A stretch of 64,000 nucleotides of DNA from positions 1,773,219-1,837,218 of the forward strand of contig NZ_AP024233.1 of NCBI RefSeq assembly GCF_025998535.1, read 5' to 3'. Positions 7,707-64,000 of the stretch are shown here, piece after piece. The notes under the pieces are model-generated. The model worked only from the letters and a program-made list of their open reading frames with translations. It made no database searches and was not told where the DNA came from. A program made the translations under genes and the position numbers. The DNA comes from Desulfolithobacter dissulfuricans. Its GTDB lineage: Bacteria > Desulfobacterota > Desulfobulbia > Desulfobulbales > Desulfobulbaceae. Every line of letters starts with the position of its first letter. The stretch's first letter is position 1.

Positions 7707-7786
7707 ATCGAGTAGGGTGAGGCAAGGTAATTAAGCTTGCCTCATCCCTCTCACAGAACCGTACGTACGGGCCTCGTATACGGCTC
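7707..7786 (-). ncRNA. Group II intron domains V and VI
   Basis: On the minus strand, 7786-7755 reads GAGCCGTATACGAGGCCCGT and continues to ACGGTTCT. It has the AGC/GTTC-type ends and hairpin layout of catalytic domain V. A second hairpin follows (GAGGCAAG...CTTGCCTC), fitting domain VI with the branch-point A. They lie just past the stop of the intron ORF, as expected. Confidence 0.75.
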
Positions 7787-7801
7787 CTGTTTATTTTTCC
7801 T

Positions 7802-9070: not shown

Positions 9071-9798
9071 GCTCCTGTCCTGCGTTTCCCTTCCTCTATT
9101 TCCACGTGGAGACTTCGGTTCTTCAATGGGCGCGACCGCTTTCTATCCTCATGGGCAATATACGATCAACACTCCCATCTACTCCGATGAACGGCCAAAA
9201 TCGGCAGAGGACCTGTCACGGCATACCGCCGATAGCGTGCCCCGTCCCGTCGGACGGCTTGTGTTCAGTCTGCCAGGTGTCCATAGATTCCGGAAAACCT
9301 TCAAATAAACTTCATCCCTTCGCAACAGATATGGCTTTTGGCTCATAACTGCCCCCAACGAACCAGGCCGTTGGGTCATCCCGGTTTTATCCTCCACACT
9401 GTTACCAGGCTTCACAGGCCGGAATTTCATCACTACTACGGAATCATCTGCCACCTCACACCGCTTCGATCCGCCTTGGATTTCTCCTTGTGCTTCTCTT
9501 TTTCCGCTTAATGCGGAAACAGTGCAAGGCTTCCCCGGTTAAGGCGAACTCCCTGTGAGCGACCACATCCTCAATCACGTATCAGGACTGACCAGGTATC
9601 GGGCTTCGCGCTATTTAGGACGCTTACCCTCCTGATACGCCGAATCAGGTTCGCTTGCGCTATGTGCCGCTCACTTCCTATCGCTTCCTTCAGACCCTGC
9701 CGTTACCAGCAACGCCCTTACGATTCGGATTGTCTTCCCCCTGGTCAGGGTGACGCCTGCTTAACACAGGCTGGGTTTGCCCGCCATGCCGGGCAAAC

Positions 9799-27014: not shown

Positions 27015-27740
27015 TCACACGTATTCTTTCCTTTTCTCCACCACCACGCCGACGATCCGGAACTCCCTGCCGGTCATGTCCATGATCGGATAACGGTAGT
27101 TCAGTGGCTTCAGGTAAATACAGCCACCATCTTTCACAAACTGCTTCAGCGTGGTTTCTCCGTTGCCGTCCGGCCCATTATCCACCCTGGCAACCACAAA
27201 GCTGCCGGAGACCGGCTCCCTGGCCGGGTCCACAACGATAATATCCCCTTCCCGAAACTCCGGCTCCATCAAGTCCCCTTCCACACGGAGGGCAAAAGCA
27301 TCGGGACTGACACGACTCAACGTCGGCACCCACTCTTCATCATCATCCGAATGAGAAGGGTCCGTTCTTCCGGCCCACTCCCCGGCCCGCGTCCATGATA
27401 TCAGCGGAACGCTGGTCCGGAAATCCTGCCCTGAAGGAAGATTGGAGTCCGCTTTTGCCAGCTGCTCGCGCAGAGTGGCAAGCCTCTGCTCTATCTCATC
27501 ATCAGAACGTCCGGCGAGGATGAACCGGCCAAGGGCCAGCATCTCCTCGTATGTGCAACCAAGGGCATCGGATATGCGTTCTTTCAGGTTTTGGCCTGCA
27601 CTTTTTCTTTTCCCGAGAATATCGCTTAAGTGGTTAGGAGAGATACCCACACGGACAGCCAACTTACTTTTCGCACCTCGGCCCTTGGCTTCCAGCCTAT
27701 TTCGCAGAGCTGCCACAAAACATTCATCTGATGAGTTCAT
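27015..27740 (-). CDS. CI/LexA-type repressor with inactive S24 peptidase site
   Basis: Protein of 241 residues. It has an N-terminal helix-turn-helix (KLAVRVGISPNHLSDILGK, residues about 26-44), a linker, and a C-terminal LexA-like S24 domain. The family catalytic serine sits in GDSMEP; here the codon is TTG and the motif reads RVEGDLMEPEFREGDIIVVD. The catalytic lysine region is kept (TTLKQF). The protein should therefore bind and dimerise but not self-cleave. It is divergent from a Cro-like gene across an operator region with TTAAGC half-sites, so it probably controls the element's phage-like switch. Removal would need an antirepressor; two candidate antirepressor-domain genes lie nearby. 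Confidence 0.88.
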   Translation of the reverse strand: MNSSDECFVAALRNRLEAKGRGAKSKLAVRVGISPNHLSDILGKRKSAGQNLKERISDALGCTYEEMLALGRFILAGRSDDEIEQRLATLREQLAKADSNLPSGQDFRTSVPLISWTRAGEWAGRTDPSHSDDDEEWVPTLSRVSPDAFALRVEGDLMEPEFREGDIIVVDPAREPVSGSFVVARVDNGPDGNGETTLKQFVKDGGCIYLKPLNYRYPIMDMTGREFRIVGVVVEKRKEYV

Positions 27741-29334: not shown

Positions 29335-29570
29335 TGAAACAGCGGCTCCAGACCACAGTTCCCCTCTTCCGGTGGGTCCTGACGGCCATGGGCGTAACAG
29401 GAGCGTTTCTTAATGCCTTGGGCGATGGAACCTGCTTTGTGATCTGGATTCTGGCCAATATCGGCTGGATAACCGTCAACCTCCAGCGGCGGTCAGGGCC
29501 GGAGGTTGCTCTGTTCACGGTCTATTTAGGTACGGCTGTTCTTGGCCTTGTTACCTGGGGGATGCAGTGA
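29331..29570 (+). CDS. Small inner-membrane protein
   Basis: Protein of 79 residues read from the ATG at 29331 (a second ATG follows at once). It has two or three hydrophobic segments (FRWVLTAMGVTGAFLNAL, CFVIWILANIGWITVNL, VALFTVYLGTAVLGLVTW) joined by short polar turns, so it is an integral membrane protein. Its stop overlaps the start of the replication-initiator gene by four bases. I recognise no family; a membrane-associated partner for the replication protein is speculation. Confidence 0.6.
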   Translation: MMKQRLQTTVPLFRWVLTAMGVTGAFLNALGDGTCFVIWILANIGWITVNLQRRSGPEVALFTVYLGTAVLGLVTWGMQ

Positions 29571-30895
29571 GCAAACCGGCTGAGAAGACACGGGAAGTAA
29601 CGTCGTTCGAATACGACGGCAAACGGATAAGAGTCATCCTGGACAAACAGGGCCGACTCTGGTGGGTGGCGAAGGAAGTCTGCGAGGTGCTTGGGTTACG
29701 GAGCCCGTCCGTGATTGTACAGGTACTGGATGATGATGAACGGGTTAAAAAAAATTTAGGCCGCCAAGGCATGACCTGGCTCGTCAACGAGTCCGGGCTT
29801 CACGCCTTGATTTTCCGTAGTAACGAGCCCAAGGCCAAATCGTTTCGCAAGTGGGTAACATTGGAGGTGCTGCCCACGATATACGAGACCGGCAGTTACC
29901 GGATCAAAGAAAATCAGAATCCCTTCATCCTGTCGCCCATCGACCAAGAATCCAGCAAGTCTTTTCGATTGGCCGGACCTTCCAGCCACGGGAAATGGGA
30001 GACAACACCATTAGCCAACCACCCTGTCCAAAAGGAAAAGGTAGAGGCTACCCTGGAACCTGTTAATGACGGCCCCAAACCGCTGCCGGACTCACTTCCG
30101 TCCACTGAACCAGTGAACTTGCCGCCATGCTCATCAACCAATCATGTTTCACCAAACATATGCCTGCAATCAGCATTGTTTGGGATCGTAAAAAGAGGAC
30201 ATCGCAGAACAATGAACAACGAGCTGATAGCATCATTCACAGGCGCAACGGTTAAATTTTCGGGTCAACAATTTGACCAGGGAGACATGGATGTCTTCCT
30301 ACAGGCTGTTCACTTATCTGCCAAGCAGAAAAATCAACGGCCTGATGGATTGGTTCAGTTCACTGTCCGCAGTTTTCTTAAAGCGATAGGAAGGAAGCCA
30401 GGAAAATCAGGTCAGGAATGGCTGCTCAATTCGATTCGTCGATTAACGACCTCATTAGTCGAGATTGAAATACGCTCACGTAACCAAGTTGCCGCTCCTG
30501 ATAGGTACGGAGGATCACTTATTGATGAATTTTATTTCAGAGGTGCTACCCAGACCTATTACTTGAAAATCAATCCCAAATTAGCGGCACTGTTCGATGC
30601 TGGCTGGAGCGCTCTGGACTGGCAGCAACGGCTATGTCTTCGGACCGATCTTGCCCGGTGGCTGCACGGATTCTACGCCAGCCAACAGGCGCCCTACCCC
30701 TGCAAAGTGTCGACCATCCAAAGGCTGTGTGGCTCCGAAGAACGTAGATTCAGCAACTTTCGCATTAAGCTCAGAAAAGCTCTTGAGCAGCTCGTTGAGT
30801 CTGGTGCCATCAGGTCTTGGGAGATAGACAGGGAGGATAAGGTTCATGTGCAACTGCCCAAGAGACTCCCGGAGAGCAATCAACAGCATGGCTGA
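29567..30895 (+). CDS. BRO-N domain fused to a TrfA-type plasmid replication initiator
   Basis: Protein of 442 residues. Residues about 12-115 match the BRO-N domain of phage antirepressors (GRLWWVAKEVCEVLGLRSPS, NESGLHALIFRSNEPKAKSF, then RKWVTLEVLPTIYETGSYRI). A linker follows. From about residue 200 the protein resembles TrfA, the initiator of broad-host-range IncP plasmids (SALFGIVKRGHRRTMNNELI, FLKAIGRKPGKSGQEWLLNS, then LRTDLARWLHGFYASQQAPY). TrfA binds iterons as a monomer and opens the origin. Nine iterons lie 240 bases downstream. The start GTG at 29567 overlaps the upstream stop. The fusion suggests that replication is tied to the regulatory switch. Confidence 0.82.
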   Translation: MSKPAEKTREVTSFEYDGKRIRVILDKQGRLWWVAKEVCEVLGLRSPSVIVQVLDDDERVKKNLGRQGMTWLVNESGLHALIFRSNEPKAKSFRKWVTLEVLPTIYETGSYRIKENQNPFILSPIDQESSKSFRLAGPSSHGKWETTPLANHPVQKEKVEATLEPVNDGPKPLPDSLPSTEPVNLPPCSSTNHVSPNICLQSALFGIVKRGHRRTMNNELIASFTGATVKFSGQQFDQGDMDVFLQAVHLSAKQKNQRPDGLVQFTVRSFLKAIGRKPGKSGQEWLLNSIRRLTTSLVEIEIRSRNQVAAPDRYGGSLIDEFYFRGATQTYYLKINPKLAALFDAGWSALDWQQRLCLRTDLARWLHGFYASQQAPYPCKVSTIQRLCGSEERRFSNFRIKLRKALEQLVESGAIRSWEIDREDKVHVQLPKRLPESNQQHG

Positions 30896-32622: not shown

Positions 32623-33219
32623 ATGGATCACTCGACAGGGCTATCAAAGGAGGAGCAATGGCGGGCAGCCTGGGCTTGGGTGGAAGCCAACCGGTACATG
32701 GTAAAGGCCATGGCTGCCCGGTATCTCAAATTTATGGCGTCTGATCAGGAAGACATCATCCAGGAGGCTGTCATTGTCGCCTATCAGGTCCTCAACACTC
32801 TTGCCAGAAAAAACGTTCCTGCCAGCAGATATGGCGCATATTTCAGGACCATGTTCCGGACACGCTGTATCAAATTGGCCGCAGGTGGGCGTGTCACGAC
32901 CACCTTTGACCTGGACAAGATTCCGGTAATAAGTCCAGACACCGATTTCTACGAAGTCGACAAAGCCATCATTGAAGCGGCACTGCAAATAATGACCGAC
33001 CGGCAACGCCAGGTATTCCGCTGGATACTGGAGCAACCTGAACCGATCAACGCTACGGCAGTTGCCAGGAAATTCGGTATCCAGAACCGCTCTGCCCGCA
33101 AATTGATCAACAGTGGAATTAAACGAATCAGGAGAAATAAGAACATTGCAGATCAATATCGACCAGTTCGCACAGCAGTCAGTGATTCCCCGCAAACTCT
33201 TGCTATGGATGCGGGATAA
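32623..33219 (+). CDS. Sigma-70-like RNA polymerase sigma factor
   Basis: Protein of 198 residues with a region-2-like helix (MAARYLKFMASDQEDIIQEA, then VIVAYQVLNTLA) and a C-terminal region-4-like helix-turn-helix (LQIMTDRQRQVFRWIL, then ATAVARKFGIQNRSARKLIN). Both are hallmarks of ECF-type or phage-type sigma factors. The ATG at 32623 is chosen because GGAGGGAGG is 3-4 bases upstream; an earlier in-frame ATG has no such site. It probably directs polymerase to the element's own promoters. The conserved motif upstream of three transfer units is a candidate target. Confidence 0.75.
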   Translation: MDHSTGLSKEEQWRAAWAWVEANRYMVKAMAARYLKFMASDQEDIIQEAVIVAYQVLNTLARKNVPASRYGAYFRTMFRTRCIKLAAGGRVTTTFDLDKIPVISPDTDFYEVDKAIIEAALQIMTDRQRQVFRWILEQPEPINATAVARKFGIQNRSARKLINSGIKRIRRNKNIADQYRPVRTAVSDSPQTLAMDAG

Positions 33220-33589
33220 GAGAATCATCGACGATCCCCTCACCGAGAAAAACATTGCCGGCCTGGAGATGCTGGAGCAACTATGGGGCCGCCACGAGGT
33301 TCTGCGGGCGCAACTGGGCCGGCTTTCCAAACCTCGGAGGCAGCGGCTGATCGACACCGCCGGGTTGGAAACCAAATGGGAGCGCTATGCCTATGGCCGC
33401 TACATGAACCTCGAAAACGGACAGAAGCTCGCCATGAAACAATTAATAGCTGAAATCGAGGAAACCTATGGTTTCTCCCTGAATAAAATTCAGGTCAGGC
33501 GCCTCTATCAGATCAGGGAAAAAATTTATTTCACTCGAAAAAAAAAGAAACGAGGAACAGTGACAGGCTCTCAAAATCATCATTCTTGA
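33146..33589 (+). CDS. Hypothetical protein downstream of the sigma factor
   Basis: Frame of 147 codons if read from the TTG at 33146, behind AGGAG; a GTG at 33113 would add 11 residues. It overlaps the 3' end of the sigma gene. Helical and basic, with LLLWMRDKRIIDDPLTEKNI near the start and a lysine-rich tail. I recognise no family. Coupling to the sigma gene suggests an anti-sigma factor or co-regulator, but no membrane segment or zinc motif supports that. Confidence 0.6.
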   Translation: MQINIDQFAQQSVIPRKLLLWMRDKRIIDDPLTEKNIAGLEMLEQLWGRHEVLRAQLGRLSKPRRQRLIDTAGLETKWERYAYGRYMNLENGQKLAMKQLIAEIEETYGFSLNKIQVRRLYQIREKIYFTRKKKKRGTVTGSQNHHS

Positions 33590-33644
33590 CAGGCAAAAAC
33601 ATCGGTAATTTGCAACAAACAAAGAAAAAGAAACAAAGTTTCTT

Positions 33645-33764
33645 ATGGTCGGTAATTTTCAGCAGGCCAAAATTCCCAAAACCTTCCCTCGTGTGAACCG
33701 CAAGGTTGCGCCACGTAGTGGCATGCCTGCCAAGGCTGTCTCGAAAAAAAATTTCCCTGTTTGA
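33645..33764 (+). CDS. Possible 39-residue basic peptide
   Basis: ATG at 33645 opens a short frame rich in Lys, Arg and Pro (IPKTFPRVNRKVAPRSGMPA), ending at a TGA at 33764. There is no clear ribosome-binding site and no homology evidence. It fills the gap between the sigma operon and the transfer leader motif. Confidence 0.25.
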   Translation: MVGNFQQAKIPKTFPRVNRKVAPRSGMPAKAVSKKNFPV

Positions 33765-33811
33765 AAAAAAATTCAAAAAAAAGGTTCCGCCCCCGGATAA
33801 GAGAGGGTGAA
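33757..33811 (+). promoter_or_regulatory. Conserved transfer leader motif, copy A
   Basis: Contains AAAAAAGGTTCCGCCCCCGG (33777-33796) after an A-rich tract, then ATAAGAGAGGG. The same motif recurs at 48.5 and 60.06 kb, each time upstream of a rightward transfer unit. Here it is 134 bases before the OmpA-like gene. The 3' part of this copy is diverged from the other two. Confidence 0.65.
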
Positions 33812-33929: not shown

Positions 33930-34523
33930 ATGCGGATAATCAGGACAACAATCCTGGTGGGAGCTTTGCTGATGCCAACCTTGACCGGGGCACAGACATT
34001 TGAAGTCAGGCAGGAAAAACATACATTCCGGATGGAGGTGACACAGGATGTCACCCGAGAGACTTTTGTGATCGGCCTGTTTCCGGAAACCACTCAGGAA
34101 TCGAAAACTCCTGCCCGGACAGTCACGAGCAAAAAGCCTGTTGCCGTGCGGATAAACGTGCTTCCCACCCATGCCCGGAAAGCAAAAGCCATGAAATGCC
34201 GATTACCGGTTGTCCGGTTCAAGATCAACGACGCCACTCTTCAGGCAGGCCAGGAGGATGCAATCCTCTCCGGCCTGAAGAAATGCGGCATTACACATGA
34301 CACAGGACTGGTAATCGTTGGCCACACATGCGATCTCGGCCCAGCCGAATTTAACCGGAACCTGTCCCTGCGCCGGGCGGCGGTTGTAGCCGATTTCCTC
34401 AAGAAGCACGGCTATGCCATAGCCATGGTCCAGGGAAAAGGCTCGGAAAATCCCGTAACACAGGACCCGGCCAGGCGATACCTGAACCGCCGGGTTGAAA
34501 TCAAAGTACAGGAGAAGAACTGA
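33930..34523 (+). CDS. OmpA-family protein of the transfer region
   Basis: Protein of 197 residues with a signal peptide (RTTILVGALLMPTLTGAQT). The C-terminal OmpA-like peptidoglycan-binding domain has LVIVGHTCDLGPAEFNRNLS, then LRRAAVVADFLKKHG, and an ending NRRVEIKV. It would sit in the periplasm or outer membrane and anchor the mating apparatus to peptidoglycan. It is first gene of the transfer unit behind leader copy A, and overlaps dsbC by one base. OmpA-like genes are not part of the F plasmid core, so this is an accessory of this element group. Confidence 0.8.
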   Translation: MRIIRTTILVGALLMPTLTGAQTFEVRQEKHTFRMEVTQDVTRETFVIGLFPETTQESKTPARTVTSKKPVAVRINVLPTHARKAKAMKCRLPVVRFKINDATLQAGQEDAILSGLKKCGITHDTGLVIVGHTCDLGPAEFNRNLSLRRAAVVADFLKKHGYAIAMVQGKGSENPVTQDPARRYLNRRVEIKVQEKN

Positions 34524-35248
34524 TGCTGAAACGTATTGCGATCTCAGTGGCACTGCTTGCCGCAGCAACAACCACTTATGCTGGCAGTTGTGGAGATGAT
34601 GAAGCGGCTGACCTGGCAACCAGCGATGTTGCGGCTACGCTCAGGGAGACCTTTCCGAACTATCAGTTCCAGGAAATCAATCCCGCTCCGGTCTCCGGTC
34701 TTTACGAGGTGGTATCGAAGAACAATATCATCTATTTCGCCCCGGAAACGGGCCATCTCATTTTCGGGGAAATATGGGACAAGAAGGGCCAGAATCTTAC
34801 CGCAAAAAGCAGGGACCGGCAGACAGCCAAGATGATTGAGAACCTGCCCCTGGACAAAGCGGTCAAGATTGGCAACGGCAAGCACAAGGTCATCGAGATC
34901 ACCGATCCAGATTGTCCTTTCTGTCGCAAGGGCAGCAAGTTCTTCGCCAACCGCAGCGATGTGACCCGCTATGTCTTTTTCTTTCCACTGGCCATGCACC
35001 CCGATGCAGAGCCTAAAGCCATGTACATCCTCGGGGCTGACGACCAGGTGGAAGCATACGAAAGAGTCATGCAGGGCGAGTTGGACGGCAAGCCTGTTCC
35101 GGCACCGACCAAGGCAGCCCGTGACCTGCTGGAGGAACACAAGCGGATAGCAATTCAACTCGGCGTCAACGGTACACCGAGATACTGGATCAACGGCGTC
35201 TCTGTCTCCGGAGCAAACATTCAGAAGATCGAGTCGCTGCTTCAATAA
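34523..35248 (+). CDS. dsbC: DsbC/DsbG-type thiol-disulfide isomerase
   Basis: Periplasmic disulfide isomerase of 241 residues. It has a signal peptide (ISVALLAAATTTYAGS), an N-terminal dimerisation domain (YEVVSKNNIIYFAPETGHLI), and a thioredoxin fold with the active site DCPFCRKG near residue 133. The cis-Pro loop is GTPRYWINGV. Such isomerases are frequent in F-type transfer regions, because TraN, TraU, TraH and others carry many cysteines. The two very Cys-rich TraN-like proteins here make the need obvious. It is co-transcribed with the OmpA-like and pilin genes. Confidence 0.92.
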   Translation: MLKRIAISVALLAAATTTYAGSCGDDEAADLATSDVAATLRETFPNYQFQEINPAPVSGLYEVVSKNNIIYFAPETGHLIFGEIWDKKGQNLTAKSRDRQTAKMIENLPLDKAVKIGNGKHKVIEITDPDCPFCRKGSKFFANRSDVTRYVFFFPLAMHPDAEPKAMYILGADDQVEAYERVMQGELDGKPVPAPTKAARDLLEEHKRIAIQLGVNGTPRYWINGVSVSGANIQKIESLLQ

Positions 35249-35276
35249 TCTCCCAATCAAATTCAAGGAGGTAAAA

Positions 35277-35635
35277 ATGAGTAACCGGAACAATCAGATC
35301 AAAAACCTTGCAACCCCCGCAGCGGAAAAATGCCGTCAGGCAAAGATGGCCACGGCACTGGCTGTCTGCACCGCCGCCTGCCTGCTGGCAGCCGGAAACG
35401 CCCTGGCCTTCACCGCCCGGCGTCCGGCACCTTTGCCTATGACATCTACGACGTGGGGGTCAACCAGATCCTCAAAGGCCCCATCGGTTTTGTCGGCGGA
35501 GTCGGTGCGATGGTTGCCGCAGGCGTCATGGCGATCCGGCAGATGCTGTTGCCGGCAGCGGCCACCGTTCTCGGCGGAGCCTTCCTGCTGAAGGCCGACA
35601 GCGTTGTATCTACCCTGGGAGCCATCATCAGTTAA
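35277..35635 (+). CDS. traA: TraA-like conjugative pilin, frameshifted
   Basis: The pilin precursor is read in two frames. The leader from ATG 35277 (MSNRNNQIKNLATP..., hydrophobic CTAACLLAAGNALAFT, cleavage at ALA) loses frame at 35418-35420. The mature part continues in another frame (GTFAYDIYDVGVNQILKGPI, then two hydrophobic segments ending STLGAIIS) to the stop at 35635. One more G in the CCCGG stretch would join them. A long leader and two membrane spans fit F-type pilin of about 120 residues. AAGGAGG lies before the start. It sits between dsbC and traL, as expected. Confidence 0.75.
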
Positions 35636-35644
35636 GGACAACTA

Positions 35645-35923
35645 ATGTCTGAGGGTACACGAAGAGCATTTCCGCAGTATTTGTCCAACCCGATCCAGGT
35701 TCTCTGGTTCGAGAGCGATGAGCTGTCAATTATCGTGCTGTTCTTCGTGCTGGCTATGATTTACGGGGGACTGGCCTGGATACTGTTCTTCGCCGGTCCC
35801 TACCTGTACAGCCGAAGCAAGAAGACAAAGCCACGGGGATACCTGTTTCATCTGCTCTACATGATCGGGTTGAACAAAATGAAACACTACCCGGAATATT
35901 TTGACAAAGATTTTAACGAGTGA
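35645..35923 (+). CDS. traL: TraL, type IV secretion pilus assembly protein
   Basis: Small inner-membrane protein of 92 residues (VirB3-related). It starts with the conserved FPQYLSNPIQVLWFESDE and has one or two hydrophobic segments (LSIIVLFFVLAMIYGGLAWI). It takes part in F-type pilus assembly at the inner membrane. It follows traA by nine bases, and its stop overlaps the traE GTG start by four bases. Confidence 0.93.
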   Translation: MSEGTRRAFPQYLSNPIQVLWFESDELSIIVLFFVLAMIYGGLAWILFFAGPYLYSRSKKTKPRGYLFHLLYMIGLNKMKHYPEYFDKDFNE

Positions 35924-36477
35924 AAACAAATATTTTTCTGCAAAAAACCAGCAACCTGTTTGTCGAGAACAGGGTTTTGAAGTTCACGGTGCTTGTTCTT
36001 GCGGCAGCCGTTGCCGTCAACTCGTTCATGGTTTCCCGAGCGGTCAAGTACCAGCGGGTAATCCTCATCCCACCCAAAATGACCGGCACAATCGAGTTTG
36101 TCGAAGGCTTGCCGTCCGAGACGTACATCAAGGACATCACCCGCAAGATTATCAACCTGGGGGCCACCTATTCACCGGCGACTGCCAGGGCACAGTTCGA
36201 CGAGCTGCTGGCCTATTATGCGCCGGAGGAATACCCCAAGGCATCGTCAACCTGGTACGCCCTGGCAAGCAGGGTGGAGGAAGCGCTGGTCAGCTCCGTT
36301 TTCTATCCTCAGAAAATCGTCCTGAATGATGGCGAACTGGAGGTGATCGGCAACTACAAGCAGTTTGCCAACAACCAGATCATCGAGTCCGGTCCCAGAG
36401 CGTATGTTCTCCGGTACCGGATCGAGGACGGCAGGTTCTATCTCCTGTCGTTTCTGGAAAAAGGAGGAACGCCGTGA
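35920..36477 (+). CDS. traE: TraE, type IV secretion inner-membrane protein
   Basis: VirB8-like assembly protein of 185 residues with an N-terminal membrane anchor (KFTVLVLAAAVAVNSFMVSR) and a periplasmic domain containing ILIPPKMTGTIEFVEG and SEYI-type YIKDITRKIINL. It is needed for pilus extension in F-type systems. GTG start at 35920 overlapping traL, and a stop overlapping traK, show tight translational coupling. Confidence 0.92.
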   Translation: MKTNIFLQKTSNLFVENRVLKFTVLVLAAAVAVNSFMVSRAVKYQRVILIPPKMTGTIEFVEGLPSETYIKDITRKIINLGATYSPATARAQFDELLAYYAPEEYPKASSTWYALASRVEEALVSSVFYPQKIVLNDGELEVIGNYKQFANNQIIESGPRAYVLRYRIEDGRFYLLSFLEKGGTP

Positions 36478-37238
36478 ACAAGCCCAGATACGGCCTGATC
36501 GGAGCAATAATCGCTTCCATGGCCATGCCAGCCATAAGTGTTGCCAACACGCCTTTCAAGGGCAGCGTCACTGTTCCGCCGGAAATAACGACAGCGGTTG
36601 AGCTGTCCAGCACGGATATAAACAGGATCGTTTGTCCCGGCACCATGAATGACCTGATTTTTTCTCAGGAAAAAGGGCTGGACGGACATTTTTCCGGCAA
36701 CAATGCCTTTGTGAAATTCAAAATCACCAAGAAAGGTGAAGAGCTTATCTACAGCACCACTCCCAGCGAGCTGTTTGTGGTGTGCAACAACGTCGTATAT
36801 ACGTTGATCGCCACCCCCAAGGAAATTCCGGCTGTCACCGTTCGCCTGGCACCGGGCATTGGCGACAAGCTGAAAAAAAACATTACCCATTTTCAAAATC
36901 TACCTCTTGAGAAACGGGCATTGCAACTGATCCGTGAGGCTTACTCAGGAGAATACCCGTCCGGGTATCAGATGGTACCGGCGGACGTGAAAATTGATCT
37001 GTCCTCTGATTTCTCAACCACGCTGTACAGGGTCGTGAATGTTGAAGGGGTTGGGCTGAGGCTCAAGGAGTTTCAAGTTAAACCTCTTGCAGAAAAGCGG
37101 CTGACTCTGGATGAAAAAATGTTTCTGACCCCGAACATCAGTGAAACCCTGCTGGCGGTTGCGATTGAACGGCACAACATCAAACCCGGTGAGACAACCA
37201 GGGTGTTCGTTGTAGAGCAAAAGGAGAAAAAGCAGTGA
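36474..37238 (+). CDS. traK: TraK, secretin-like outer-membrane complex protein
   Basis: VirB9-like periplasmic protein of 254 residues with a signal peptide (GLIGAIIASMAMPAISVANT). Beta-rich segments follow (ITTAVELSSTDINRIVCPG, where F-type TraK has its conserved N-R-I pattern). With TraV and TraB it builds the outer-membrane core of the F-type channel. GTG start at 36474 overlaps traE, and the stop overlaps traB. Confidence 0.92.
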   Translation: MNKPRYGLIGAIIASMAMPAISVANTPFKGSVTVPPEITTAVELSSTDINRIVCPGTMNDLIFSQEKGLDGHFSGNNAFVKFKITKKGEELIYSTTPSELFVVCNNVVYTLIATPKEIPAVTVRLAPGIGDKLKKNITHFQNLPLEKRALQLIREAYSGEYPSGYQMVPADVKIDLSSDFSTTLYRVVNVEGVGLRLKEFQVKPLAEKRLTLDEKMFLTPNISETLLAVAIERHNIKPGETTRVFVVEQKEKKQ

Positions 37239-38431
37239 GCATCAAGGACAGATTTGACAGCCTTTCCCCTGGTCACAAGAAGGTGGTGGTCTGGTCGATG
37301 ATCGGGGCTGTATTCCTGGGCGTGACGGTTGTCGGCTACAAGGCGTCCCGCTCCGGGGACGATGCAGCGTCATCGGCTTCTGTGGTGAAAAAGACCCGGG
37401 AAATTTCCCTGGAGCCGGATTTGATCCAGAAAACCATGCTCCGGGAGCAGCGGCGGGAAATGGACGCCCTGAAAAAGGAGGTGGAACAGCTCAGAAAGGA
37501 GCGGGAGAATTGGCAAGCCACTACAACTCCCCCTGCTGAAACTGCCGAGGAAACCAGGCTTCCGGAAGTACCAACCGCCGACCAGGTGGTGAACATGAAC
37601 GGTTCCGACAAACTGGAGCCTCTGCCGCTGCCCGGAAGCAGGTTTCCCATGCCGCCCGGCAATACCACTCCCCCGCCCCCGCCCCCGGAAGAAGTGCAGG
37701 TCATCGGGGCCATCGGTGTGCTGACGAACCAGGAAGCTGCTGCCGACGTCCAGGTGGCCGGGACGGACAATCAAAAAAAAAAGAAACGGACAGTCTATCT
37801 GCCTCCTTCCTTTATGGAGGCGAGGCTGCTGACAGGTTTCGACGCTTCTACAGCCGGTAACGGCAAGAACAACCCCGAACCGATCCTTCTCAGGATTCAG
37901 ACTCCCGCAGTTCTGCCAAACGACATCAAGGCCAATCTGCGCGGCTGCTTTGTTATTGCCGAGGCGGTCGGACGCCTGAACAAGGAACGGGCCGACGTAA
38001 GGCTGGTGTCCCTGTCCTGTATCAGCAACGAGGGCAATGCGGTCATCGACACCACCATCAAGGGATTTGTCACTGATTCGGACAGCAAAGTTGGACTTTC
38101 CGGCAGGGTGGTCTCCAAGATGGGCGCGGCCACGGCCAGGGCTGTGGTTGCCGGCCTGTTTGACGGAGCAGGGAGAGCGTTGCAGTCAGGTACCCAAACC
38201 CAGGCTGTTTCGGCTCTCGGGGTGACATCCGTGGTTGATACGGATCAGCTTGTCAACGCATCCATTGGCGGCGGGTTGTCCGAGGGGGCCAATACTCTGA
38301 GTGACCTGTATCTCGACATGGCGAAACAGGCGACCCCAGTGATCGAGGTTGGAGCCTCCAAGAAAATCACCGTCATTATTTCAGAGGGCAAAGAGCTTGA
38401 AATTAAAGAGTTTAAGAATGATGAACTGTAA
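37235..38431 (+). CDS. traB: TraB, VirB10-like core channel protein
   Basis: Protein of 398 residues spanning the envelope. It has an N-terminal membrane helix (VVVWSMIGAVFLGVTVVGYK), a coiled coil (REQRREMDALKKEVEQLRKE), a proline-rich linker (PPGNTTPPPPPPEE) and a C-terminal VirB10/TrbI beta barrel (GCFVIAEAVGRLNKERADVR, GFVTDSDSKVGLSGRVV). It transmits energy from inner-membrane ATPases to the outer pore. It overlaps traK upstream and traV downstream. The fold and length are typical. Confidence 0.94.
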   Translation: MSIKDRFDSLSPGHKKVVVWSMIGAVFLGVTVVGYKASRSGDDAASSASVVKKTREISLEPDLIQKTMLREQRREMDALKKEVEQLRKERENWQATTTPPAETAEETRLPEVPTADQVVNMNGSDKLEPLPLPGSRFPMPPGNTTPPPPPPEEVQVIGAIGVLTNQEAAADVQVAGTDNQKKKKRTVYLPPSFMEARLLTGFDASTAGNGKNNPEPILLRIQTPAVLPNDIKANLRGCFVIAEAVGRLNKERADVRLVSLSCISNEGNAVIDTTIKGFVTDSDSKVGLSGRVVSKMGAATARAVVAGLFDGAGRALQSGTQTQAVSALGVTSVVDTDQLVNASIGGGLSEGANTLSDLYLDMAKQATPVIEVGASKKITVIISEGKELEIKEFKNDEL

Positions 38432-46890: not shown

Positions 46891-46980
46891 GTGACGGCGA
46901 AAAATCCGGCCCCTGTACCGGACATCATCCCCGCTGCCTTTACTCTTCATGTTTATTCAACTCTATGTTATCATGGAATT

Positions 46981-48210
46981 ATGAATCCTGATAAACCGGA
47001 CATAGAAACGGACGTTAAACCGGTCGCGAATCGTCACGAAGCGGTTTCCCTGATGGAACCTCTGCTAATCCCGCCGGAGTCTCGTTTTTCGGGTAAAATC
47101 AATGATCTCACCGTGGAGCTTGCCGCCAGAGCAGCCGGTTTTCGACGCAGCATGCCCGATGGTATGACCCGTTCCCTGGCCGACCTGGTCAGGGCCATGA
47201 ACTGTTATTACAGCAACCTGATCGAAGGGCATGATACGCATCCGGTCGACATAGAGCGAGCCCTGCAAAAGGATTACAGCTCAGATAAAGAAAAAAGAAA
47301 CCTGCAGCTCGAAGCCAGGGCGCATATCGAGGTTCAGGCCTGGATCGACCATGGCGGCTTAAAAGGAAGAATATTCACCATTGATGGAATCAGGGAAATC
47401 CACCGCCGTTTTGCAGAACTTCTGCCGGATGAATTACTGTGGAGCGAAGATCCCGACAGTGGAGAACGAGTCCATATCAAACCCGGCGCTCTCAGGGATC
47501 GGGATGTCAAGGTCGGTCGTCATGTTCCTGTCAGCCCAGGCGCCCTGCCAAGGTTTCTCCAACGGTTCGAGCAGGTCTATTCCAATCTGGGCAAATCGCG
47601 GACCATTGCCATGGCAGCGGCGGCGCATCACCGATTGTTGTGGGTTCACCCCTTTATCGACGGCAATGGCAGGGTGACACGTTTGATGTCTCACGCGATC
47701 TTTTTAGAGACTCTCAACACTGGTGGCGTATGGTCCATTGCCAGGGGGCTTGCCCGGAACGTAAAAAAATACAAGGCCCTACTGGCCAATTGTGACCTGC
47801 CCCGGAGGAATTCCCTGGATGGTCGAGGGAACCTGAGTGAAGAAGCCCTGGCACAGTTTACCATATTTTTCCTTCAGACCTGCCTGGATCAGATCGATTT
47901 CATGGAAACGCTGATGCAGCCGGATCGACTGCGCCACCGTCTGCTCGCCTGGGCGTCCGAAGAGGTGGCCATGGGCACCCTGCTGCCTAAATCGGAACGA
48001 ATCCTGGAAGCTCTCCTCTACCGAGGACAACTGCCTCGCGGTGAGGTCCCGGCCCTGCTGGGAGTGGGTGAGCGCCAGGCACGCAGAGTGGTTTCCGCCT
48101 TGAGCAAACAGGACATACTGACGTCCACCAGTCAGCGAGCACCGCTTTCTCTTGGTTTCCCGCCGCGACTTGCTCCGCGGCTGATGCCGGGGCTTTTTCC
48201 GGATAAATAG
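46981..48210 (+). CDS. fic: Fic/DOC family protein
   Basis: Probable AMP transferase of 409 residues. The active-site loop HPFIDGNGRVTR (about residues 223-234) matches HxFx(D/E)GNGRxxR. The helix SNLIEG near residue 78 is the (S/T)xxxE(G/N) autoinhibitory motif of class II Fic enzymes, so activity is probably self-restrained. A C-terminal winged-helix segment (ILEALLYRGQLPRGEVPALL) is typical of these larger proteins. The ATG at 46981 fits the domain start. It is cargo between traN and traW, next to an IS607 remnant. It could be a toxin-like modifier or host regulator; target unknown. Confidence 0.88.
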   Translation: MNPDKPDIETDVKPVANRHEAVSLMEPLLIPPESRFSGKINDLTVELAARAAGFRRSMPDGMTRSLADLVRAMNCYYSNLIEGHDTHPVDIERALQKDYSSDKEKRNLQLEARAHIEVQAWIDHGGLKGRIFTIDGIREIHRRFAELLPDELLWSEDPDSGERVHIKPGALRDRDVKVGRHVPVSPGALPRFLQRFEQVYSNLGKSRTIAMAAAAHHRLLWVHPFIDGNGRVTRLMSHAIFLETLNTGGVWSIARGLARNVKKYKALLANCDLPRRNSLDGRGNLSEEALAQFTIFFLQTCLDQIDFMETLMQPDRLRHRLLAWASEEVAMGTLLPKSERILEALLYRGQLPRGEVPALLGVGERQARRVVSALSKQDILTSTSQRAPLSLGFPPRLAPRLMPGLFPDK

Positions 48211-48496: not shown

Positions 48497-48548
48497 TCAC
48501 TTTTTTTCCGAAAAAAGGTTCCGCCCCCCGGTAAGAGAATATAGAAGC
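48497..48548 (+). promoter_or_regulatory. Conserved transfer leader motif, copy B
   Basis: CACTTTTTTTCCGAAAAAAG, then GTTCCGCC and a run ending CCGGTAAGAGAATATAGAAG. It is identical to copy C (60.06 kb) over about 47 bases except for one extra C. It stands about 40 bases upstream of the traW fragment start. The T7-CCG-A6 part is a small palindrome. Confidence 0.7.
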
Positions 48549-48585: not shown

Positions 48586-48804
48586 ATGTTTTCCGTAAAG
48601 ACGGTTCGATATGGTGTCAGTGCCATGGCCATTGTTCTGGCTGCTGTCGCACCGGCGCAGGCGTATAAACATCTTGGCACGGCTGGCCGGACATTCCCGA
48701 TTGTGGAACCGGACGCGCTGACTGAAATCAAAGAGGCGGCGGCCCGTGTCAATTGGGAAAAGGTTTGGGACAAGCAGCAATTCCCGGACAAGCCTGAAAC
48801 GTAG
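48586..48804 (+). pseudogene. traW: TraW, 5' fragment
   Basis: Signal peptide (AMAIVLAAVAPAQAYKHL) followed by the conserved TraW N-terminus (LGTAGRTFPIVEPDALTEIK, then VNWEKVWDKQQ). The frame ends after 72 codons, where transposase-bearing DNA begins. The rest of TraW resumes at about 50645. TraW is a periplasmic protein needed for F-pilus assembly, so this break matters. Confidence 0.82.
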
Positions 48805-49014
48805 GTATAGCGTGAAATCTTACGACATTTTTCGTAAACTTTTTATCCAATCCAGAGGATCGGACCCAACATGCAAATATCGACGGTGTCATCATAACCT
48901 ACTGGAATAACGACGATAAAAAACAAGATCCCGGTTATTTTTTTCTTGACAAGGCCTTGAAAGGGCGGTTCGCGTTTTTCTATGTGATTTCAATTAGTTG
49001 CATAGGAGAACGCC

Positions 49015-50406
49015 ATGGACCAAATCAAACTCTACAACGTGGAACGTATTGTCAGCCTCATCACGGATCAGACCAAAACGGTGCGAAAGCATTGCAATGC
49101 TGATAACTTTATCCGAGTATTGCGCCGATGTTTTCAGGCGATCCCTGATCACCGCCAAGTCAGCAAAACGAGCATCTCCCTCGATGATGCTCTCATGTCA
49201 GCATACGCCATGTTCTCCCTCAAGGATCCCTCGTTGCTGGCTTTTGAAAATCGACGTCTCAACGAGGCCGAAAATCTGCGTGCCGTATTCGGTATCGAAA
49301 ACATCGCCTCCGACACCCAGATGCGGGAAATCCTCGATCCTCTTTCGCCGCGTGAATTCAGATCAGGTTTTACCGCGGTATTCCGCATCCTCCAGCGCGG
49401 CAAAGACCTCGAAGCCATGACCTGTCTGGATGGACACTACCTGATCAGCGGTGACGGTACCGGTTTCTACTATTCGACAAAAGTCGGCAATGATTTCTGC
49501 CTCAGAAAGAAACAGGAAAACGGTAAACATGCCTACTACCAGCAGATGTATGGAGCAGCCATTGTCCATCCTGACAAACGGGAAGTCATTCCCTTCTGTC
49601 CCGAAATGATCAGCAACCAGGACGGCACCAGCAAGCAGGACTGTGAGCGGGCTGCTGCCCAGCGTTTCTGGCGAGAGTTCCGTCGCGAACACCCTCATCT
49701 TCCAGTCATCGTCACTGAAGACGCTCTGAGCAGCAATGCACCGCATATACGGGAGCTCAAGGCCTTGAACCTGCGTTTCATTCTTGGTGTCAAACCAGGT
49801 GACCATCAGTTTCTGTTCGAGCAGTTCGATGCCTCTGTCGAGACGGGTAAAGTGACGGAATTCAACATGGATGATCCCAGGGATCCAAAGAAATATCATG
49901 TCTTCCGCTACGTCAATGGCCTGTCCCTGAACAAGTCCAACCAGGATCTGAAGGTCAACCTGCTCGAGTACTGGCAAGCTGACGACAAGGGCAATGAACT
50001 GCGGTTTGCCTGGGTGACCGACCTGGAGATCACCAGGGAGAACGCCTATGAGATCATGCGGGCGGGCCGGGCCCGGTGGCGTATCGAAAATGAGACGTTC
50101 AATACCTTGAAGAACCAAGGGTATCATCTGGGACACAACTATGGCCTGGGGGCACAACATCTTTCAATGGTATTCACCACTCTGATGGTGCTGGCGTTTC
50201 TGGTTGACCAGGCTCAGCAGCTGGGATGCTGGCTTTTCCGCAAGGCCTGGGAAGAGTCCAGAAGCAAACGTCAGCTCTGGGAGAATGTCCGTAGTCGATT
50301 CAGGGAACTTCCTGTAGACTCGATGGAAACACTCTACCGGAGCATTGCTTTTGGCATCAAGGGGTACGTCGTCGAGGTGATCGAACCTGACGATGTGATG
50401 ACCTGA
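49015..50406 (+). CDS. IS4-superfamily DDE transposase
   Basis: Intact transposase of 463 residues. DDE-type strands are visible: DGHYLISGDGTGFYYS with the first Asp, VIVTEDALSSNAPHI with the second, and WRIENETFNTLKNQGYHLGH with the Glu and the Y-x-x-x-H/N ending. A C-terminal copy of the same family lies at 10742-13083. It sits inside traW. The ends of the element could not be placed: I found no clear inverted repeats between 48805-49014 and 50407-50644. GCATAGGAGAACGCC gives a good ribosome-binding site. Confidence 0.9.
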   Translation: MDQIKLYNVERIVSLITDQTKTVRKHCNADNFIRVLRRCFQAIPDHRQVSKTSISLDDALMSAYAMFSLKDPSLLAFENRRLNEAENLRAVFGIENIASDTQMREILDPLSPREFRSGFTAVFRILQRGKDLEAMTCLDGHYLISGDGTGFYYSTKVGNDFCLRKKQENGKHAYYQQMYGAAIVHPDKREVIPFCPEMISNQDGTSKQDCERAAAQRFWREFRREHPHLPVIVTEDALSSNAPHIRELKALNLRFILGVKPGDHQFLFEQFDASVETGKVTEFNMDDPRDPKKYHVFRYVNGLSLNKSNQDLKVNLLEYWQADDKGNELRFAWVTDLEITRENAYEIMRAGRARWRIENETFNTLKNQGYHLGHNYGLGAQHLSMVFTTLMVLAFLVDQAQQLGCWLFRKAWEESRSKRQLWENVRSRFRELPVDSMETLYRSIAFGIKGYVVEVIEPDDVMT

Positions 50407-50644
50407 CCCGCCGTCAATCGGTGGGCTATATCAAAGAGCACGACCTGCCGCAAACAGGAGCGGCAAGGTAAGGGTGCAACTATGCTTAATTGTCAGGATA
50501 TATCCCTTTTTTGGTTAACAACTTGGCGCATGATGGCGTGATCAAAGCGAAATAGCTTTACCGTCCCCCTTGGGTGAACATAAATCTGCGCCTACCATGG
50601 CTCAGAATGCCCTTCACCGGGAATAGCTGTGGGACAAGAAGAAG

Positions 50645-51118
50645 ATGACAGCTCTGATAAAGAAATACCAGCCAAAAGACCTGCAACGCCTTCCTGCCGC
50701 GACTGAAAACAAGAAGTTTCTGGTGGACCTGACCTACACCCTGAACCGCAACATACCGGATGGGCAGGGAGGGATACTCTATCCCAAAGGATATTCCTTC
50801 AACCCCCTGGATTACGTCAACCTGTCCAGCATCCTGGTAGTCATTGACGGGTCCGACCGGCGGCAGGTGGAATGGTTCAAGGATTCTCCCTATGCCGATG
50901 ATTTCCGGTGCAGGCTCCTGTTGTCAGGTGGAGATTTTTACGACCTGATTATGGACCTGGGCCGGCCAGCCTTTTACTTATCAGCGGAAATTGCCGACAG
51001 GCTTAAACTTGCTGCGGTCCCGTCTGTTGTCGTGCAACAGGGCAACAAGATGCTGGTGCAGGAAATCCTGGTGCCAGACAAAGAGACGCAAAAGGAGAGC
51101 ACAGGTGAAGACAAATAG
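50645..51118 (+). pseudogene. traW: TraW, 3' fragment
   Basis: Frame of 157 codons with the conserved TraW body: FLVDLTYTLNRNIPDGQGGI, LYPKGYSFNPLDYV, LVVIDGSDRRQVEWFKDSPY and AFYLSAEIADRLKLAAVPSV. The preceding bases read LWDKKK, resembling VWDKQQ at the break in the 5' fragment, so little is lost besides the join. The ATG at 50645 may allow a truncated product without signal peptide, which would stay in the cytoplasm. The stop overlaps the traU start. Confidence 0.82.
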
Positions 51119-60043: not shown

Positions 60044-60092
60044 CACTTTTTTTCCGAAAAAAGGTTCCGCCCCCGGTAAGAGAATATAGAAG
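60044..60092 (+). promoter_or_regulatory. Conserved transfer leader motif, copy C
   Basis: CACTTTTTTTCCGAAAAAAG, then GTTCCGCCCCCGGTAAGAGA and ATATAGAAG, matching copy B over its whole length apart from one C. An A-rich stretch before it (GAAAAAAATTCAAAAAA) matches copy A. It ends about 50 bases before the traG start. Confidence 0.7.
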
Positions 60093-60141: not shown

Positions 60142-63100
60142 ATGCCCAGACTTAGGATCAGTTCTTTTCCGGTTCCGACAATGTTGGCCACCTTGCTGAT
60201 GCTGTTGATCCAGGCCGATCCCGCCCTGGCCCTGCATATGGAATTTTATACTTATGGCGGTTTCGGGCCGGTGACGCAGGCGTTTCGCAAGATCGCCCTG
60301 ATTTTTACCGATTCGGCCTACCTTGGCCTGTTTTTTACCGTAGTCGTGCTGGGCATTGTCGCGGCGGCATCAGCCTGGACGGTAAAGATGGCCACCGGCG
60401 TCAAGATTGTCCCCCTTGTATGGGCAGCCCCCGTGTTGATCGGAGTAGTCATATACCTTGGGCTCTTTGTACCCAAGGGCAGCTTGACAGTTTATGACCC
60501 CGTACTCAACAGGTTTGAAACCATCGGCAATATACCCAATAGCATTGTATTTACGGCAGGTACACTAAACACCATCGAGAGGGGATTGGTCGAAATTATA
60601 GATACCGCCGGGATTCCAGGAGCAAAGTATCAGGAAAATGCCGGAGGTATTGGTTTCAACGCATTGAAGGCTGCGGGATGGACGGACCTGAAAAACGATT
60701 ACGCCAAGGCAAGTATGGCCCGGTACATCAGGGATTGTGTCATGTTTGAATTAACCAGGCCAGGCACCACGCTGTCCCTGGATACTCTCAGAAATAACAC
60801 AACAGACTTTATCCCGGAACTGGAGAAAGCTATCAATCCCTGGATATACACAGTCTATTATGACGCCGCCAACCCGGAAGGCGTTTCCATGACCTGTACT
60901 GACGCATGGAACAACATCAAACCCATTTATACTGACCCCAACTTTTACAGCGATGCTATCAAGGCTCTGTGCGGCCAAACGCTGTTTGATCCATCACAGG
61001 CATCAGATCTGAACACATGCAAAAATCTGGTCACCAACACCTTGAACGCGACTGTTGGATTGTCGGTTACTCCCGAGAAATTTATCCAGCAAAGGAAACT
61101 CTCCGAACTTCTCTATCAGTTCCTTTTTCAGTCTGACTACCAGTTATCCACTCTTCTGGATGCAAACCGCAGGATTACCACTTCCGGGATGGGCATGGGG
61201 ATCACCATGAATGCCTGGATTCCGATCATGCGGGCGGTCATGACATCCGTGGCAATCGGCCTGATTCCGTTTCTCACTCTGTTCATTCCCACACCCTTGG
61301 CAGGAAAAGCCCTGTCTGTCATGGCAGGATTTTTTGTTTTCCTTACCACATGGGGGATCACTGACGCTGTGCTTCATGGTGCGGCCATGGATTTCGCCGT
61401 AGATGCCTTCGAGGATATACGGCAGGCCGACCTGGGCGTATATGCCAGCTTCGCGTTCCCTGAAACATCGACCAAAATCCTGGCCATGTTCGGCGTAATC
61501 CGTTCGTCCGGTATCATGCTGGCCAGTTTTCTCTCCATGATGCTTATCAGGTTCGGGGGACATGCCCTGGCCATGCTTGCCGGCAATCTGAGTGGAGTAG
61601 CCCAACGTGCCGGAGCACAGGCCGGGCATACTGCCCTTACCGGCGAAGGAATGACAGATGCTCTGCAAAAACAGGTCAACACCGCTGCACTGGCAGACGC
61701 TATACCGGAACATCGTTTCGATAATCAGGCAGCAGCCAAAGCATGGGCTATACACAAGCAGATAGGACGTGCTGAAGCGGAAATGGCTGCTGTTGATGGC
61801 GCTGCAAAGGCGGGGAAACTGCCCGCTGGCATGAGCATGAAAGATCAGGCACGGGCCGTTGCAGCCGGAAAGGGAACTCCGATGGGAACCGAGAGAGGAC
61901 CTGTAACAGTCTCCACGGGACCTGACGGAAAAACAACTATGATCGCCGGTGAGACTCCGGTTAGCTGGAACTTTGTCCGCTCAGAAACACTCGGTGCGGA
62001 TGGTTCCGGCAAGGCCACGGAAAAAGGTGCTGCCGGTAGCATCGAGTACGCTGTTGACCAAAATGGCAACTATACTGCAACTTCTGCGTCGGTCAACGGG
62101 GTGAATCCAATAAATTTTGCCACATCGTTACAAAAGCAACGTGTTCAGGCTGCCGCGCATAACCTGGCGAGCAACGAAAATTACTCAAACTTGCTCAACC
62201 AACTTTCACAGGACAGCCTGACCAGTACTGAAGCTCGTTCCTTCCAGGATCAACTCAAGAATGTTGAGCAGGAAAAATGGAGCCGTGCCGTAGAAGATGG
62301 CTCGGCGTTCTCGATGATTAAAAATCAGTCTGTAAGACAGGCACTGGAAGGTCATCTTAAAGCAGGAGGAGGATGGAATTTTCTGGTTAAATTCGACGCA
62401 GGAGGAAAAGCAAGTATTACAGCCCAAGGAGAATCCGGTGAAAAAGTGAGTTTCAATGTATCGGAAAAAGAAGCCCAAATGTTTGAGCAACAGCAAATGC
62501 GGCTTCGTACCGAAGCTCTCAGTGAAACATTGCAGGATTCCAAAAATCTTTCTTATGCCAGCAATCTTGCCAAAAACATTGGTGCATCTGATGCTCAGTC
62601 CTATTTGGAGCAGGCTAAAACCGTAGAGACAGATTCTGCTACTTATGGAGCAAATCTGATGACAGCTTGGGTGAGGAACTACGCTATCAACAGATTTGGT
62701 GATGATTCACCGGAAAACATGCGCCGTGCAGTTGACCATTTTAATTTCCTGGCCACCAGGGGCGGTGAATCAGGAGTGGAACAGCTCCGAAAGGACATAA
62801 AAGGTTTTGCAAGCGGATATGATGCGTGGGGTGATACATCTGGATTGGTCAATGAAACCATATCCAGCACGAAACAACAATTGGAAGCTGAAAAGGTCGC
62901 ATTGCAAGACCAGGTAAATCCGGTTGCAGACATTGCAGCGGACAAGGCCGCAGCAATCAACGACAACACTTTTACTGATCCGACGAAAGGAAATCTTCAA
63001 GAACCAAGCAGAGATAAAACAATAAAAGCTGCTGATGAAGTCAGAACGTTCAATGAAAAAGAAAAAAATGGTGAAGGACGGATACAAACAAGCATCCCAA

Positions 63101-64000
63101 ATATGACAAAAGAAGGACTAAGTTCTGCTATACAGAATATTACCAGCGAATACATGACAAGCATTAAACGTGATGTTCCAAAACCATTTTCTCCGAAAGA
63201 CGTAGTAAAAACAACGACTGTTCCACTTGACTTTGATGAAGCGTTGCGTCAAGAAAATTTGCAAACACAGAGTCACCAGCAAAAACAAGATATAACTTCA
63301 ATACCAGACAATGCGCGGAACATTGCATCTATAAGCGACGGGAAGGTTGAATATACGCAATCTCCTGCCGGAGCCACACCACTGGCTACGGCGACAACAT
63401 CTTCTTCAGGGCCAGTCACGCCCGAAGAGGATCAGAGCCAGGTAAAAGCCACCATCGCCGCTTCTGCGTCCAACGCTGATACCATGCCAAACAGCCAACC
63501 GGTTCAGGCTCCTGAACAGCCTACCGAAGGACCGCAGGGAGCCCTGCCGAACGAACAACCCTATATCGCTCCCCAGGGAACAAAGCAGTCCGGCCAAGCT
63601 ATTGCCGAACAGTCCCAAAACACCGAACAGCCCAAACAGGAGCAATCTCTGCCGCGTTTCCCTGAGTGGGTTACGCAATACATGGAAAACCGCGCACCCG
63701 AAGCAACCGGGCAACCTACGGCTCATGGAGCCACAGGAGACACCGGAACCGGAGCCGGACAGGAACAAGTCATGCCCCATATCACTCCACAGGCAACAAA
63801 ACAACCTGTTGCTTCGCAAGGTGCAGGGCGATCCGGTCAGGCTTCAGAACAAGCTACAGAAGCCGTACCTGAACAGCCGACCGCGGAACAGGCTTATCTT
63901 GCTTCGATAAACGCTGAACAAGGTACAGCAGCTTCCGAGCAGGTAACGAACCAGGGTGCTTCTTTGGAACCACAGCCGGGCGACCAATCTTTTGTCGCTT
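60142..64000 (+). CDS. traG: TraG, mating-pair stabilisation protein, partial
   Basis: Large inner-membrane protein, open to the window edge (1286 codons so far, no stop). The N-terminal third has several membrane helices (MLATLLMLLIQADPALAL, LGLFFTVVVLGIVAAASAW, IVPLVWAAPVLIGVVIYLGL) and matches the TraG N-terminal domain (HMEFYTYGGFGPVTQAFRKI). Helices recur near 61180-61620. The periplasmic remainder is polar, and from about 63480 it is very rich in Gln, Glu and Pro (PEQPTEGPQGALPNEQPYIA type). CAGGAGATACAAG before the ATG is a good ribosome-binding site. It is preceded by leader copy C and is read as its own unit. Confidence 0.9.
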   Translation, partial: MPRLRISSFPVPTMLATLLMLLIQADPALALHMEFYTYGGFGPVTQAFRKIALIFTDSAYLGLFFTVVVLGIVAAASAWTVKMATGVKIVPLVWAAPVLIGVVIYLGLFVPKGSLTVYDPVLNRFETIGNIPNSIVFTAGTLNTIERGLVEIIDTAGIPGAKYQENAGGIGFNALKAAGWTDLKNDYAKASMARYIRDCVMFELTRPGTTLSLDTLRNNTTDFIPELEKAINPWIYTVYYDAANPEGVSMTCTDAWNNIKPIYTDPNFYSDAIKALCGQTLFDPSQASDLNTCKNLVTNTLNATVGLSVTPEKFIQQRKLSELLYQFLFQSDYQLSTLLDANRRITTSGMGMGITMNAWIPIMRAVMTSVAIGLIPFLTLFIPTPLAGKALSVMAGFFVFLTTWGITDAVLHGAAMDFAVDAFEDIRQADLGVYASFAFPETSTKILAMFGVIRSSGIMLASFLSMMLIRFGGHALAMLAGNLSGVAQRAGAQAGHTALTGEGMTDALQKQVNTAALADAIPEHRFDNQAAAKAWAIHKQIGRAEAEMAAVDGAAKAGKLPAGMSMKDQARAVAAGKGTPMGTERGPVTVSTGPDGKTTMIAGETPVSWNFVRSETLGADGSGKATEKGAAGSIEYAVDQNGNYTATSASVNGVNPINFATSLQKQRVQAAAHNLASNENYSNLLNQLSQDSLTSTEARSFQDQLKNVEQEKWSRAVEDGSAFSMIKNQSVRQALEGHLKAGGGWNFLVKFDAGGKASITAQGESGEKVSFNVSEKEAQMFEQQQMRLRTEALSETLQDSKNLSYASNLAKNIGASDAQSYLEQAKTVETDSATYGANLMTAWVRNYAINRFGDDSPENMRRAVDHFNFLATRGGESGVEQLRKDIKGFASGYDAWGDTSGLVNETISSTKQQLEAEKVALQDQVNPVADIAADKAAAINDNTFTDPTKGNLQEPSRDKTIKAADEVRTFNEKEKNGEGRIQTSIPNMTKEGLSSAIQNITSEYMTSIKRDVPKPFSPKDVVKTTTVPLDFDEALRQENLQTQSHQQKQDITSIPDNARNIASISDGKVEYTQSPAGATPLATATTSSSGPVTPEEDQSQVKATIAASASNADTMPNSQPVQAPEQPTEGPQGALPNEQPYIAPQGTKQSGQAIAEQSQNTEQPKQEQSLPRFPEWVTQYMENRAPEATGQPTAHGATGDTGTGAGQEQVMPHITPQATKQPVASQGAGRSGQASEQATEAVPEQPTAEQAYLASINAEQGTAASEQVTNQGASLEPQPGDQSFVA

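Follow-up and report, generated by a model that had tools for sequence, protein, structure and literature searches.

We analysed a stretch of 64,000 nucleotides of the Desulfolithobacter dissulfuricans genome (hereafter the window), and found that it holds an F-type transfer region with ompA-like, dsbC, traL, traE, traK, traB, traV, traC, traN and traW genes, together with traU, trbC, a signal peptidase gene, traF, traH and traG. The OmpA-like gene (33930-34523, + strand) is the first of its operon and is followed by dsbC, traL, traE, traK and traB (34523-38431, +). The gene traG (60142-63999, +; TraG_N, E 1.7e-73) runs off the window. A sigma-like gene (32623-33219, +) and an overlapping 158-aa gene, p158 (33113-33589, +), lie directly 5' of the transfer region. 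The gene traW (48586-51118) is split here and intact in related elements. Its N-terminal part (48586-48804, +) is cut by an IS insertion, and a DDE transposase ORF (49015-50406, +) separates it from the C-terminal part (50567-51118, +). Thus, transfer of this copy of the element may be poor. We also observed a gene for a Fic-domain protein between traN and traW (46891-48210).

Several other genes accompany the transfer region. The gene at 29567-30895, just 5' of the sigma region, encodes a replication-initiator-like protein with Bro-N, TrfA and RPA matches; it is conserved in relatives and suggests a plasmid-like phase of the element. Near the sigma gene lies an S24-peptidase (LexA/CI-like) repressor gene (27015-27740, - strand) that might place the element under SOS-type control. 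A group II intron found with Rfam (7707-9712, -) surrounds a 422-aa ORF (7802-9070), the usual place of the intron-encoded protein. A 764-aa ORF (14648-16942, -) shows a weak match to DndB, below the cut-off.

We found a repeated motif before the transfer operons. Its common core, AAAAAAGGTTCCGCCCCC, occurs exactly at 33777, 48511 and 60057, and the chance expectation within the window is about 0.06 even when three mismatches are allowed. The longer form TTTCCGAAAAAAGGTTCCGC is exact at 48505 and 60051 and has three mismatches at 33771 (0 expected from shuffles), while CCCCGGTAAGAGAATATAGAAG is exact at 48526 and 60071. These define copy 1 (GTTCCGCCCCCGGATAAGAGAGGGTGAA; 33784-33811, +) before ompA-dsbC-traLEKB, copy 2 (GTTCCGCCCCCCGGTAAGAGAATATAGA; 48518-48545, +; motif-model E 1.3e-5) before traW-U, and copy 3 (GTTCCGCCCCCGGTAAGAGAATATAGA; 60064-60090, +) before traG, whose right block is 1 nt nearer than that of copy 2. 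A fourth exact core lies outside the window at genome position 1865912 (window-equivalent 92694, L004:1501), 32 kb past copy 3. It precedes an operon for a 258-aa NusA-like protein, a TraD-like coupling protein and an HD-domain protein. All four copies point in one orientation, towards the transfer operons. Elsewhere in the complete 3.6-Mb genome, a single site (2577130) comes within two mismatches of the core, and it has two.

These observations agree largely with an earlier sequence-only reading, which had described near-identical repeats at 48.5 and 60.06 kb, a shorter form near 33.78 kb before the OmpA-like gene, and a sigma-like ORF at 32623. The two repeats share about 49 nt, with an extra C at 48.5 kb as the sole difference; the shorter form contains the exact core; the ORF has an ATG at 32623; and the 60.06-kb copy does precede traG. 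The 48.5-kb copy is placed before traW as described, but that gene is the interrupted one. Two of the four copies carry the proposed element ATATAG, and the other two read GGGTGA at that place. The same reading held that a motif scattered over the chromosome without ties to transfer genes would speak against its inference; in this genome the copies are confined to the operons of the element.

The 198-aa product of the gene at 32623 is, judged from its clear predicted fold, an ECF-like sigma factor. TIGR02937 matches residues 18-171 with E 1.1e-8 (34.9 bits against an NCBI cut-off of 42.9), and both Pfam sigma regions score below their cut-offs (region 2, 16.2 vs 24; region 4, 14.3 vs 24.1). 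The AF2 model (pLDDT 82) has helices at residues 9-86 and 114-171, which gives the group IV (ECF) architecture of sigma2 and sigma4 joined by a short linker, without sigma3 or sigma1. The top Foldseek matches are all sigma factors or sigma-containing complexes, and the VIA matches are sigma factors as well. Homologues at 30-42% identity are encoded in 38 of 258 genomes of the order, including that of the window, and the named matches are Desulfobulbales (Desulfopila, Desulfogranum, Desulforhopalus, Desulfocapsa and others). The gene order sigma-p158-ompA-traL-E-K-B-traC is kept almost throughout 40 homologous loci.

The conserved gene p158, directly 3' of the sigma gene, gives a weak MerR-like HTH signal in 3 of 29 family members. 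Right after it we found a second conserved non-coding element (33613-33650, +), a dyad of the form AAAGAAAC-N3-GTTTCTT. Both arms vary between elements: some have this form and others have AATAAAC-N3-ATTTATT. This dyad could be a p158 operator or an attenuator.

Related Desulfobulbales elements carry the motif in a diverged form, GTYMC-N7/8-GAAAAAAG-N2-TATAGA. We found it in many genera before the ompA, traV-C, traU and NusA-like-traD operons. Among 70 distinct aligned sites, 50 show a GT-to-TATAG distance of 22 nt and 9 a distance of 21 nt; the matrix used to collect them was ungapped and anchored at GT, and so favours sites of constant length. Before the NusA-like gene the motif can be read directly, without the matrix. 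The inner A-run starts at position 12, 13 or 14 and the remainder compensates (12+10, 13+9, 14+8), and MAFFT aligned all 35 columns of 35 representative sites without a gap. The hexamers GTYMCN and TATAGA are thus 16 nt apart, and we infer that they belong to the element sigma factor; ECF promoters have conserved -35 and -10 elements about 16-17 nt apart. The five bases before GT are A-rich (55% A), which speaks for a promoter. The spacer block GAAAAAAG is conserved better than either end of the motif, which is unusual for a sigma promoter.

The sites before ompA vary between groups. Some elements (e.g. L049-L054, L057, L061) have no ompA site and carry the motif only at the NusA-like operon; there the sigma and tra genes may form one transcription unit. 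In another clade (L056, L063, L068, L075, L076, L082-L084) only 1 nt separates the -10-like block from the ompA ATG, and transcripts begun 6-7 nt downstream of that block would lack the start codon. The right block of this ATG-adjacent site is ACAGA, not TATAGA. The site may be degenerate, or ompA may be read from upstream in this clade.

The motif is largely specific to conjugative elements. When 12 whole genomes were searched with a sequence-only motif model, matches with E<0.02 occurred in conjugation operons only. Of the matches that we read outside the model-building set (G158, G046), three stand before a gene for a TraV-like lipoprotein, and one (L300) before a truncated traC-like stretch. 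In this search, genomes without such elements, and genome G109, gave scores at chance level only. In the G109 element we found p158 and the NusA-like gene but neither the sigma gene nor the motif, a sigma-less comparison that covers this one genome. There is no room for a sigma gene between its replication-type gene and p158, and the motif is lacking at both of its NusA-like loci. Other motif-less copies of the NusA-like gene (L213, L225, L227, L252) have different or incomplete contexts. In several draft genomes we found the motif and not the sigma gene; most of these are also without traE, and in the rest the sequence breaks before the place of sigma. First-pass matches with one mismatch in other genomes (L011, L012, L014) were set aside as chance, the two that we read being without motif context. 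The pattern GGTCAC-N-GGAAAAA by itself proved too loose.

We then compared divergence of the motif with that of element proteins. Divergence at the left end of the motif follows that of sigma region 4 (r 0.62) and of p158 (r 0.65), and that of TraE less closely (r 0.25). The partial correlation between motif and sigma given TraE is 0.60 (0 of 2000 permutations). The NusA-like protein correlates equally to sigma, from fewer elements, and partial correlations did not separate sigma from p158 or the NusA-like gene. The element of the window is itself mosaic, with a TraE closest to those of GTCAC-class elements and a motif closest to those of the GTTCC class. Furthermore, chromosomes with two elements (e.g. 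G143, G155) carry two motif classes, each matching its own sigma class. The environmental strain Desulfopila sp. IMCC35008 is one host of two elements that differ in motif class. Since both classes occur in one genome, a host factor is no explanation. Together with the covariation, this indicates that the reader of the motif is most likely encoded by the regulatory module of the element. The sigma factor is the natural candidate because of its fold, and the sigma-less G109 element supports this choice.

The gene behind copy 4 (genome 1865972-1866745, L191:1531-2304) is the first of the traD operon. Its product has no Pfam or NCBIfam match. The AF2 model (pLDDT 83, last 17 residues disordered) was compared with known structures, and the best 13 Foldseek matches, all with E<=1e-3, are NusA or transcription complexes containing NusA (best 1.2e-12). 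VIA gave a Z of 11 over 236 residues, with model residues 1-250 aligned to NusA 5-286. The predicted fold thus resembles bacterial NusA over the N-terminal RNAP-binding domain, S1 and KH1. It differs in being 258 aa long, without a family model, and encoded beside traD in conjugative elements; because KH2 is missing and the protein ends after the KH1-equivalent region, we call it NusA-like and not NusA. We found the gene in 46 of the 258 genomes of the order. Relatives with 24-26% identity lie beside coupling-protein genes on a Pelobacter propionicus plasmid and a Geobacter plasmid, the former with the same order of NusA-like, TraD-like and HD protein genes.

Taken together, a conserved regulon of transfer operons is real, and the data strongly support the earlier suggestion that the mating genes form one regulon: here the motif is restricted to operons of the element, and it recurs before homologous operons of many relatives. 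We consider that the motif is probably a promoter class private to the element and read by its own ECF-like sigma factor (probability about 0.6). The sigma factor, from the sig-p158 pair, would guide host core RNA polymerase to GTYMC as a -35-like and TATAGA as a -10-like element, 16 nt apart with a conserved A-rich spacer. It would turn on all the separate units together, namely ompA-dsbC-traLEKB, traV-C or traW-U, traG, and NusA-like-traD-HD. The NusA-like product would then accompany RNA polymerase along the long operons. We infer direct recognition by sigma, the start sites and the NusA-like role from these data. The sequence-only reading had offered GGTTCC and ATATAG, about 17 nt apart, as promoter elements for this sigma. 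In favour of this, the pair matches the conserved ends and their 16-nt spacer, and the motif tracks the sigma module and is absent from the one element shown to be sigma-less. On the other hand, p158 and the NusA-like gene track it equally, GAAAAAAG is the most conserved part, two of the four copies here have GGTGA in place of TATAG, and the sigma protein scores below the family cut-off. The main weakness is that the predicted start would fall inside ompA in one clade.

These reservations lead to p158, which alone or with sigma as co-activator is the most likely other element regulator to bind the motif as a DNA site. MerR-type activators bind within promoter spacers, and the spacer is the best-conserved block of the motif. 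With this, the MerR-like signal in a few family members and a covariation as good as that of sigma fit such a role. However, p158 is retained in the G109 element, from which sigma and motif are both missing. The motif also lacks dyad symmetry, and p158 would more plausibly bind the dyad-shaped element beside its own gene. We regard p158 as a possible but less likely reader of the motif.

Somewhat less probable still is that the motif acts as RNA, as a nut/put-like operon leader bound by the NusA-like protein for processive antitermination. Antitermination is used by conjugative elements elsewhere (PMC8955417, PMC11658703), and here a NusA-like gene is conserved together with the motif. The motif lies from 1 nt to more than 100 nt before the ATG, always on the same strand, and the ATG-adjacent ompA sites fit a transcribed motif. 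But we found no RNA fold in the motif and no enrichment of sigma-70 promoters upstream of it (8.05 observed vs 8.10 shuffled), and G109 has the NusA-like gene without the motif. The constant end-to-end spacing with inner compensation also suits a -35/-10 pair better. The RNA leader that the sequence-only reading had named as its alternative is thus less likely, and it keeps some probability because the element also encodes a NusA-like protein. A Shine-Dalgarno argument at the ATG-adjacent sites in G018 and G070 was rejected as a sign of transcription; GGAGG is conserved also far from the start codon and is therefore unreliable. A resemblance of GTCACCCCTCCT to the 16S anti-SD was dropped, as it is not kept in other motif classes.

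That the repeats are recent leader duplications within this element, devoid of regulatory meaning, would fit copies 2 and 3, almost identical over 49 nt, but we judge it refuted and very improbable, given diverged, element-specific forms before the same operons in many genera. We also rejected a sigma-54 promoter: although the window copies fit the GG-N10-GG spacing, they lack the -12 GC, and the first GG is missing in relatives. RfaH/ops-type antitermination was likewise rejected, the genome having one NusG gene only and no specialised paralogue. TATAG resembles promoters of T7-like RNA polymerases; PF00940 had no match in the genome, in a search whose positive controls were silent too.

Returning to the ECF-like sigma factor as reader, a more elaborate private programme is a tentative extension. 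The sigma factor would start all transfer operons, and the NusA-like factor, made from such a promoter, would sustain the polymerase, possibly reading the 5' part of the motif in RNA.

SetCD is a two-gene transcriptional activator and not a sigma factor, whereas the candidate here is an ECF-like sigma factor adjoining an HTH protein. The SetCD regulon of SXT/R391 ICEs (PMC4344509) and AcaCD of IncA/C plasmids likewise place dispersed transfer operons under an element-encoded master regulator. SigN of pBS32 in Bacillus subtilis (PMC6751061) is likewise a sigma factor of a mobile element; it is under LexA control and has a link to cell death following DNA damage. So far as we found in the literature, SigN is not known to drive conjugation genes, as we propose for the sigma factor here. 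Bipartite antitermination of Gram-positive plasmids (PMC8955417) and canT of Tn916 (PMC11658703) are also element-specific controls of long transfer operons. These systems act on elongation, whereas the present element combines a NusA-like protein with a linear motif whose spacing resembles that of a promoter. Our literature search found no description of a Desulfobulbales conjugation sigma factor or a conjugative NusA-like protein. Element sigma factors (SigN, PMC6751061) and transfer master regulators (SetCD, PMC4344509) are known; the present combination is a novel variation on them.

These results suggest, in concrete terms, how F-type conjugation might be activated beyond the Gammaproteobacteria, namely by a single sigma gene acting with a promoter that is predictable from sequence. 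They also tie to traD, in conjugative elements, a NusA-like protein for which we found no earlier family model or description. In each element, promoter and sigma module change together, even where two elements share a chromosome, and sister elements could thus be insulated from each other.
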